Source of the DNA: Rhodococcus maanshanensis NBRC 100610
GTDB lineage: Bacteria; Actinomycetota; Actinomycetes; Mycobacteriales; Mycobacteriaceae
Direction: 5' to 3'
DNA: 64,000 nucleotides
Assembly: GCF_001894865.1 (NCBI RefSeq)
Contig: NZ_BCXA01000002.1
Location: forward strand, 124,001 to 188,000
Shown: one piece after another, positions 24,474 through 26,709 of the stretch
Position numbering within the stretch: position 1 is the stretch's first letter
Layout: each line of letters opens with the position of its first letter
Notes under the pieces: model-generated
What the model was told of the DNA's origin: nothing
Seen by the model: only the letters and a program-made list of their open reading frames with translations
Database searches by the model: none
Translations under genes and position numbers: made by a program

Positions 24474-24522
24474 GTCTGCCCTCGGCAGACAAATCGATTC
24501 GCCACCGCGCCAAGCGGATACA
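24474..24522 (+). promoter_or_regulatory. PopR-type box and promoter of the clpP pair
   Basis: GTCTGCC-CTC-GGCAGAC (24474-24490) contains TCTGCC-N3-GGCAGA, the palindrome I recall for Streptomyces PopR at clpP3-clpP4. GATACA (24517-24522) is a -10 candidate 9 nt before ATG 24532; the -35 position (about 24494-24499, TCGATT) matches poorly, as expected for an activator-dependent promoter. The palindrome centre lies near -48. Confidence 0.7.
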
Positions 24523-24531
24523 ACGGAATGC

Positions 24532-25134
24532 ATGACCGCGACACCAGCCCTGACCTATCGAGACCAACTCACCGACCGACTGTTCCGGCAGCGCACCGTG
24601 ATGCTGACCGGTGAGGTGAACGACGAGATGGCCGAGCGGGCCTGCGCGGAGCTGGTGCTGCTCGCCACTGCCGACGCCGAGCGCGACGTCGTCGTCTACA
24701 TCAACTCTCCCGGCGGCTCCGTGCTGGCCGGGCTCGCCATCTACGACACCATGAAGCTGATCCCCAACGACGTGGTGACCGTCGCGCTGGGGTTCGCCGC
24801 GAGCATGGGCCAGGTGCTGCTCGCCTCCGGCACCCACGGGAAGCGAATAAGCCTGGCGCACAGCCGGATCATGATGCACCAGCCGTCGGCAGGCATCGGC
24901 GGCACGGCGATGGACATCGCCATCCAGGCCGACAACTGGGAGTACATGAAGCGACAGTCGGAGGAGATCCTGGCGGCCGAGACAGGCCGCACGGTCGAGG
25001 AGATCGCCGCCGACAGCGACCGGGACCGCTGGTTCACCCCCGAGCAGGCACGCGAGTACGGGATGGTCGATCACGTGGTCGGATCGTTCGCACAGATCGC
25101 GCCGTTCGCGACCGCACGACGGATGGGGCTGTAG
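24532..25134 (+). CDS. clpP: ATP-dependent Clp protease proteolytic subunit (ClpP3-type)
   Basis: 200 residues, normal ClpP length. Catalytic Ser in [15 protein letters not shown], His in [11 protein letters not shown], Asp in the later [11 protein letters not shown] region; YINSPGGSV is the oxyanion/handle region. First gene of a tandem pair 2 nt from the second, forming a two-component ClpP barrel with an AAA+ partner encoded elsewhere. The location beside a PopR/ClgR-type regulator and the operator upstream suggest the inducible clpP3-clpP4 pair rather than the essential clpP1-clpP2. Confidence 0.93.
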
Positions 25135-25136
25135 TC

Positions 25137-25733
25137 ATGGCGCAGTACTCGATTCCCAGCGTCATCGAGCGGACCCCCGCGGGCGAGCGCTCCTTCGACG
25201 TGTTCAGCCGACTGCTCAACGAACGGATCATCTTCCTGGGCACCGAGATCGACGACGGCGTCGCGAACGTGGTGATGGCGCAACTGCTGCACCTCGAGGC
25301 GGACGCGCCGGATCGGGAGATCGGCCTGTACATCAACTCGCCTGGTGGCTCGACCACCGCGATGCTGGCCATCTACGACACCATGCAGTTCCTGCGCCCC
25401 GCGGTCGCCACCTATTGCATGGGTCAGGCCGCGTCCGCCTCGGCGGTGCTGCTCGCCGCGGGCGCGCCGGGGCGCAGGCACGTGCTCGCGCATTCGCGGG
25501 TGCTGTTGCATCAACCGTCCGCTCAGGGTCAGGGCACCATCTCCGATCTCGCCCTGCAGGCCGCGGAGGTGCTGCGGGTCCGGGCGCAGACCGAGGAGAT
25601 CCTCAGCGCGCACACCGGCCAGGACGTGACGCGATTGCGCAGGGACACCGACCGGGACCGGATCTTCACTGCCCAGGAGGCGCTCGACTACGGCCTCGCG
25701 GACCAGATCATCGTCTCCAGGGACGCGGCGTAA
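25137..25733 (+). CDS. clpP: ATP-dependent Clp protease proteolytic subunit (ClpP4-type)
   Basis: 198 residues. Catalytic Ser in [19 protein letters not shown], His in [11 protein letters not shown], Asp in [12 protein letters not shown] follows the first clpP stop after two bases, so the pair is co-translated. About 40% similar to its neighbour by eye. It converges on the regulator gene with a 16-nt gap. Confidence 0.93.
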
Positions 25734-25749
25734 CGGACGGCGCCGCCGA

Positions 25750-26124
25750 TCAGGCGGCCATCAGCTCCACCCGCGGCGGACCGGTCACCGTGTGCTGACC
25801 GGTGCGCCGCGGGGCCGACAGTCGCCGCACGCTCCGGGCCAGCAGGTTCTCCAGCGGCAGGCCGAGTGCGTCGCACACCGAGCGCAGCATCTCCGACGAC
25901 GGCTCCTTGCGTCCGCGCTCCATCTCGGAGAGGTACTGCTTGGACATGCCCACCGCCCGCGCCACGTCGTCGAGGGTGCGGTCCTGATCGCGGCGCTCGT
26001 CGCGCAGGATCTCGCCGTAGACCTGCCGCAGCAGGGGAGCGGGCCCGTCGCCGCGGTCCTGGCGTCGGCCGTCGCGCCGCCTGGTGGCGATGTCGACGAC
26101 GACCGGACGGTCCGCAGCTGCCAT
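25750..26124 (-). CDS. PopR/ClgR-type Cro/CI (XRE) activator of clp genes
   Basis: 124 residues. XRE HTH with the ClgR/PopR signature DVARAVGMSKQYLSEMERGRKEPSSEMLRSVCDALGLPL. The chain ends ...RVELMAA; two C-terminal alanines are the feature that makes PopR a ClpP1P2 substrate in Streptomyces (recalled knowledge). It should activate the adjacent clpP pair through the TCTGCC palindrome and be removed by the housekeeping protease. PopR fits better than ClgR because of the operator type; the two are paralogues. Confidence 0.85.
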   Translation of the reverse strand: MAAADRPVVVDIATRRRDGRRQDRGDGPAPLLRQVYGEILRDERRDQDRTLDDVARAVGMSKQYLSEMERGRKEPSSEMLRSVCDALGLPLENLLARSVRRLSAPRRTGQHTVTGPPRVELMAA

Positions 26125-26211
26125 GACCGCAAGCCTGCCACCGGGTCTGATGTTCGGCGCACTTGTTCACTCAGGGCGGACCCGGCGGCGAGATTCGCTG
26201 ACGATTGACCG

Positions 26212-26260
26212 CCGATGTAAAGCGTGCTTGACTCCGTACGACAAGCACGCTTTACATCGG
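26212..26260. promoter_or_regulatory. Perfect 19-bp inverted repeat before the membrane protein/XRE pair
   Basis: CCGATGTAAAGCGTGCTTG (26212-26230), 11-nt spacer, exact complement (26242-26260). Each arm itself contains AAGCNNGCTT, so two operator dimers could bind. A promoter TTGACT (26228-26233)/TTTACA (26251-26256), 17-nt spacer, lies inside it. The GGAGG ribosome site begins at its last two bases. Autoregulation by the XRE protein is inferred. Confidence 0.7.
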
Positions 26261-26268
26261 AGGCATGA

Positions 26269-26709
26269 ATGGCGCGAACTCAGCAGGCCGGGCGCGTGTG
26301 GCGAGCGCCGGTGGCGCACTACGTGTTGGCGGCAGTCTTCGGCGTGATCGCCACCGCCGTCCTGTCGACGATCTCGGGTCTGACGAACCCCGGCGGTTTC
26401 CGGCCCACGTTCGCGATCACCGCGCTCTGCGCGGCCTACCCGGCTTTCGCGCTCGGCGTGAAGATGTTCGTCACCGGTCACACCGTGACGGTGGATGCGC
26501 ACGGGGAACAGAGCATCGAGGTGCGATGGATGGAGCGGGCCGGCGCGGGCGCATTCCTCGACGTGCTCGTCGCGACAACACTCGGCGCCGCGGCTCTGCT
26601 CATCACCGGGTTCGAGGTCCAGGCCGTCGCGGCGCTGATCGGCGTCGCCGCCTTCTCGGTGGTGGATGTCGGCCTGCGCTATCTCATCATCAAGCGGCAG
26701 GCGTCCTAG
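26269..26709 (+). CDS. Four-helix membrane protein in an XRE operon
   Basis: 146 residues, four hydrophobic helices (about 15-35, 48-68, 98-118, 120-140). No catalytic motif. GGAGG 5 nt before ATG 26269. Stop overlaps the GTG of the XRE gene (TAGTG). Small membrane proteins paired with a tiny XRE regulator are widespread, with unknown function. Confidence 0.75.
   Translation: MARTQQAGRVWRAPVAHYVLAAVFGVIATAVLSTISGLTNPGGFRPTFAITALCAAYPAFALGVKMFVTGHTVTVDAHGEQSIEVRWMERAGAGAFLDVLVATTLGAAALLITGFEVQAVAALIGVAAFSVVDVGLRYLIIKRQAS

Follow-up and report, generated by a model that had tools for sequence, protein, structure and literature searches.

A predicted PopR-type proteolytic feedback switch for a spare clpP3-clpP4 pair in Rhodococcus maanshanensis

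Does the PopR/clpP3 clpP4 circuit of Streptomyces lividans (Viala 2000; Viala and Mazodier 2002; summarised in PMC9775585, PMC9765437 and PMC12607617) have a counterpart in Rhodococcus maanshanensis NBRC 100610, where two clpP genes face a gene of the XRE family? Streptomyces PopR binds a site built from TCTGCC and GGCAGA half-sites and induces clpP3P4 (PMC9775585, PMC9765437, PMC12607617). It is broken down by ClpXP1P2 in vitro, and no ClpP3 appears as long as ClpP1P2 is functional (PMC9765437, PMC12607617). The locus was analysed within a window of 64,000 nt (contig NZ_BCXA01000002.1, positions 124,001 to 188,000), to which all coordinates refer unless another contig is named. The following features were assigned:

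24474 to 24490, no strand assigned: predicted PopR-type operator, palindrome GTCTGCCCTCGGCAGAC, with its centre about 50 nt upstream of the clpP3 start codon
24519 to 24524, forward strand: weak -10-like hexamer TACAAC, separated from the ATG by 7 nt, recognised from the sequence
24532 to 25134, forward strand: ClpP3-type protease subunit ClpPa, with Ser-His-Asp motifs; groups with Streptomyces-type ClpP3 (98/97)
25137 to 25733, forward strand: ClpP4-type protease subunit ClpPb, with Ser-His-Asp motifs; groups with Streptomyces-type ClpP4 (98/97)
25750 to 26124, reverse strand: PopR-type XRE gene (predicted activator) for a protein of 124 aa ending in VELMAA, convergent with the clpP pair
25750 to 25758, reverse strand: terminal Ala-Ala codons and stop, a putative degron; AA kept in 76 of 80 relatives
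26165 to 26181, reverse strand: ClgR-like or hybrid box GTCCGC-N5-GTGAAC, 40 nt upstream of the popR start codon, a candidate ClgR or PopR site

The clpP pair pointed out in an initial annotation of this DNA was confirmed as two open reading frames separated by 2 nt, and so was the convergent XRE gene ending in AA. The operator TCTGCC-N3-GGCAGA, which the annotation had placed ahead of the pair, is present as TCTGCC-CTC-GGCAGA at 24475-24489, within a 17-bp palindrome (GTCTGC-N5-GCAGAC) that reads GTCTGC-CCTCG-GCAGAC at 24474-24490. The clpP3 ATG lies 50 nt from the operator centre and 41 or 42 nt from its end, for the 17- or the 15-bp form, respectively. Without mismatch, GTCTGC-N5-GCAGAC has a single copy in the whole 5.67-Mb genome, which is the clpP3 site, while TCTGCC-N3-GGCAGA has two (reversed-pattern control, 0), the other lying within a gene that encodes a large LuxR-type regulator. 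Inspection of the sequence revealed no recognisable -35 element for the clpP3 promoter, and the annotation's remark that there is "no good -35" was thus correct. Because the -10-like TACAAC lies 7 nt from the ATG and the spacing to the ATG is fixed in relatives, the clpP3 transcript is probably leaderless, with its start at 24532. Given this start, the operator centre would fall at about -50, adjoining the absent -35, which is the position expected for an activator.

We then consider where the housekeeping ClpP1P2 is encoded. A PF00574 search of the genome yielded four ClpPs, namely the window pair and another pair on contig C17 in the gene order trigger factor (tig)-clpP1-clpP2-clpX; the check for ClpP1P2 elsewhere in the genome, proposed along with the annotation, was therefore positive, and the idea that the window pair might be the sole clpP genes was rejected. 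A separate ClgR, whose C-terminus is also AA, was found at C52 beside pgsA and cinA. Upstream of clpP1, TTCACGCCAATAGCGAAC (C17, 79447-79464) fits the corynebacterial ClgR consensus WNNWMGCYNNNRGCGWWS (as quoted in PMC2905415), and no PopR-type box was found in the region before clpP1. Judged by these sites, the ClgR circuit of clpP1P2 and the PopR circuit of clpP3P4 look separate at the operator level.

Could the XRE protein of the window itself be the genome's ClgR? Its score against the NCBIfam ClgR equivalog model was 80.5 bits, below the cut-off of 170, but this cut-off alone is not decisive, since the genome's real ClgR (142 bits) is also under it. In the tree, however, the window protein falls outside the ClgR clade (99/94), and its gene is not at the pgsA-cinA-clgR locus; with ClgR sitting at C52, this identity was rejected. 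The AA terminus alone cannot identify a PopR, because ClgR ends in AA as well. The deep branches of the tree that unite different PopR-type groups, including Streptomyces PopR, are weakly supported for this short protein, so that kinship with Streptomyces PopR is drawn from synteny, operator and partner genes. The PopRs closest to that of the window come from the cassettes of two Streptosporangiaceae genomes (Microbispora, L103; Microtetraspora, L104) and are nested among those of the Mycobacteriaceae, which suggests that the whole PopR cassette has moved horizontally.

To see how far these features are conserved, we scored 80 distinct actinobacterial clpP-clpP-popR loci, which were chosen by PopR similarity and not by box or C-terminus; the fractions thus test conservation but are not prevalences. 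The convergent clpPa-clpPb-popR order is found in Rhodococcus, Antrihabitans, Nocardia, Microbispora, Microtetraspora, Nocardioides, Agromyces, Cellulomonas, Actinoplanes, Gordonia, Amycolatopsis, Ilumatobacter and others, as well as in Streptomyces-type genomes, which we assigned to this type from their four or five ClpPs and from the operator form in three of eight loci given below. The popR gene is convergent in 80/80 loci, and the PopR C-terminus is AA in 76 despite a variable linker, the other four ending in VA, VA, AS and AG. GTCTGC-N5-GCAGAC precedes clpP3 in 53 of the 80 loci, compared with 0.16 on average (at most 2) in Markov shuffles and 0 in the coding control, and in 38 loci the box ends 40-43 nt from an in-frame start codon; under this strict pattern, 27/80 relatives have no box before clpP3. 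Rhodococcus boxes read GTCTGCCGTGAGCAGAC or GTCTGCCCACAGCAGAC, some genera carry a second copy 15 nt farther out, and in three of eight Streptomyces-type loci the operator is exactly TCTGCC-N3-GGCGAATCTGCC-N3-GGCAGA, the form published for the Streptomyces PopR site (PMC9775585). As the inner pair is unpaired in many Rhodococcus boxes, TCTGCC-N3-GGCAGA is too strict as a motif: it is exact in the window but slightly too narrow for relatives, whose core is GTCTGC-N5-GCAGAC. The exact 15-bp form occurs in 34 of 151 family genomes, with few of these occurrences at clpP loci outside the genus of the window.

Presence and absence within the genus and the family were also compared. Four of the six genus members (G000, G001, G003 and G005) possess a PopR orthologue, the box and four ClpPs, while the remaining two (G002 and G004) have no PopR, no box and two ClpPs only; a weak PopR match in G002 turned out to be its ClgR and was rejected. 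Because the search at E<=1e-18 also picked up ClgR (e.g. L016), PopR presence was judged by strong matches and synteny. A PopR match above 120 bits was obtained in 19/151 family genomes, and all 19 have four ClpPs, these genomes not being phylogenetically independent. Four ClpPs were present in 60 of the 151 sampled Mycobacteriaceae genomes (about 40%), and two in nearly all others. The annotation had called the arrangement notable outside Streptomyces; this view was not supported, given the spread of the cassette over many actinobacterial genera and the four ClpPs in those 60 family genomes. The layout is common across actinobacteria and not a rarity. No description of PopR outside Streptomyces was found in the literature searched, the coverage of which was incomplete.

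With the S. lividans PopR system, the window has in common a clpP3-clpP4 pair with a convergent XRE gene, the TCTGCC-N3-GGCAGA half-sites, the C-terminal AA, and clpP1P2 and clgR located apart from the cassette. The cassettes of Rhodococcus, Antrihabitans and Nocardia (L045-L059, L105-L119) share with it the gene order, GTCTGC-N5-GCAGAC, the 41-42 nt spacing, the AA terminus and intact ClpP4 motifs, whereas their inner box bases differ (e.g. CCGTGAG, CCCACAG). What is less ordinary in the window is its single operator, its intact ClpP4 triad and the conserved ClgR-like or hybrid box about 40 nt before popR. In contrast to the single copy here, the Streptomyces operator is tandem, and the distance to the likely start, 41-42 nt from box to ATG in the window, is longer in Streptomyces-type loci, which have a leader. 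At the catalytic His position of ClpP4, the window and Rhodococcus read LLHQP, while the Streptomyces-type sequences read LLGQP (8/8). Since the His is kept here, both subunits of the spare ClpP3P4 core of the window may be functional. In the eight Streptomyces-type loci (L083-L090), Gly replaces this His throughout, and their backup core may depend on ClpP3 alone.

Overall, the window very probably holds a PopR-type proteolytic feedback switch for the spare clpP3-clpP4 pair. The PopR-like arrangement claimed in the annotation was borne out by the operator, the convergent PopR-type gene with its AA end, the separate clpP1P2 and ClgR, and the kinship of ClpP3 and ClpP4; as the same parts occur in the same layout as in Streptomyces, the same mechanism is the best reading. 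Extrapolated from Streptomyces, PopR would activate transcription and be unstable, its C-terminal Ala-Ala acting as the degron. As long as the housekeeping ClpP1P2 works, together with ClpX or ClpC, PopR would be degraded and clpP3-clpP4 would stay off, because the promoter lacks a -35. Once ClpP1P2 activity drops, PopR would build up and bind the palindrome at 24474-24490, which directly precedes the -35 region, and the bound protein would recruit RNA polymerase and switch on the spare ClpP3P4 core as a backup. Changing the terminal AA of Streptomyces PopR to Asp reportedly raised its level. Streptomyces relatives require the AA end to be degraded, and Streptomyces ClgR and Lon reached higher levels after the AA-to-Asp change (PMC9775585).

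Several other explanations have to be weighed against the PopR-type switch. The box before clpP3 might be read mainly by ClgR, with clpP3-clpP4 being a ClgR target and the XRE protein acting elsewhere. ClgR is present in the genome, and the ClgR regulon of Corynebacterium, Mycobacterium and Streptomyces, like PopR, involves a paralogous XRE activator with an AA terminus and a half-N5-half site. The ClgR site has the layout GTTCGC-N5-GCG (PMC9775585), and the PopR core has the same layout with the half-site changed; the ClgR regulon further differs in its pgsA-cinA-clgR locus and its target clpP1P2. The half-site before clpP3, however, is GTCTGC and not GTTCGC, and ClgR-type boxes at this place are near background (4/80 loci versus 1.7 expected). 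Moreover, G002, which keeps ClgR without PopR, has neither the box nor the ClpP pair. We thus regard a reading by ClgR as very unlikely.

It is also quite improbable that the XRE protein represses clpP3-clpP4, or activates it constitutively, with its level not set by proteolysis. Many XRE proteins are repressors, and sequence cannot tell the effect of binding; but a box at a fixed distance upstream of a -35 region whose -35 is absent is in keeping with an activator, 76/80 loci retain the AA terminus, and the Streptomyces PopR is an activator degraded by ClpP1P2. As for a chance palindrome beside an ordinary duplicated clpP operon, the only point in its favour is that TCTGCC-N3-GGCAGA has a second genomic copy, which lies inside a coding gene. 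Against it, the box is found in 53/80 related loci versus 0.16 expected, with fixed spacing, and the 17-bp form is unique in the genome; this explanation, of nearly negligible probability, was rejected.

The PopR-type switch might itself stand under the control of ClgR. Each of the four genus members with a popR gene carries the pattern GTCnGC-N5-GYGAAC 39-41 nt upstream of the popR start codon, and the pattern occurs once in the window, both strands considered; one half of this hybrid box resembles the PopR half-site and the other the ClgR half-site. Among 83 loci, ClgR-type sites (at most 1 mismatch) precede popR in 20, where 2.7 are expected. Many of these sites, which belong to Rhodococcus, Nocardioides and Nocardia-type loci, lie at 38-41 nt from a start codon, and in several Rhodococcus loci the box is nearer the ClgR consensus than that of the window. 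PopR-type sites precede popR in 14/83 loci (0.12 expected), chiefly in Agromyces. The conserved hybrid box hints at a cascade from ClgR through PopR to ClpP3P4, in which ClgR would turn on clpP1P2 and, via the hybrid box, popR, and PopR would then turn on clpP3P4. As the site in the window departs from the ClgR consensus at two positions, we put forward this two-tier cascade tentatively, as a possibility somewhat short of even. If it is true, the loss of ClpP1P2 would be sensed twice in series, since ClgR and PopR would both be limited by the same ClpP1P2. In loci of Agromyces (L121, L122, L140, L144, L145 and L156) and Gordonia (L139), the PopR-type box lies before popR and not before clpP3, which suggests a different wiring with autoactivation of popR.

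In actinobacteria, ClpP is a target for antibacterial compounds. Should PopR-type switches operate throughout Rhodococcus, Nocardia and their relatives, ClpP1P2 blockers would themselves be expected to induce the spare ClpP core there. In addition, any actinobacterial genome can be screened for the circuit in a simple way from its sequence, by the conserved box, its 41-nt geometry and the AA tail of PopR.

Some minor observations concern related loci and the region upstream of popR. A solo PopR-like gene ending in ALAAA occurs in Tsukamurella-type genomes with four ClpPs (L060, L070), and no clpP was found in the 6-kb locus that holds it. In L158 and L173 (Micromonospora) and in L094, a ClgR/PopR-like gene precedes a single co-directional clpP, and tandem TCTGC-N5-GCRGA boxes separate the two genes; this is a one-subunit variant of the cassette arrangement. 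Upstream of popR in the window, an inverted repeat with 22-nt arms (CCGCCGATGTAAAGCGTGCTTG) and an 11-nt loop spans 26209-26263; it is absent at this place in the closest genus member. The repeat stands just before a membrane-protein ORF (26269-26709), the end of which is overlapped by a small XRE gene, and is probably the operator of this membrane-protein/small XRE pair.
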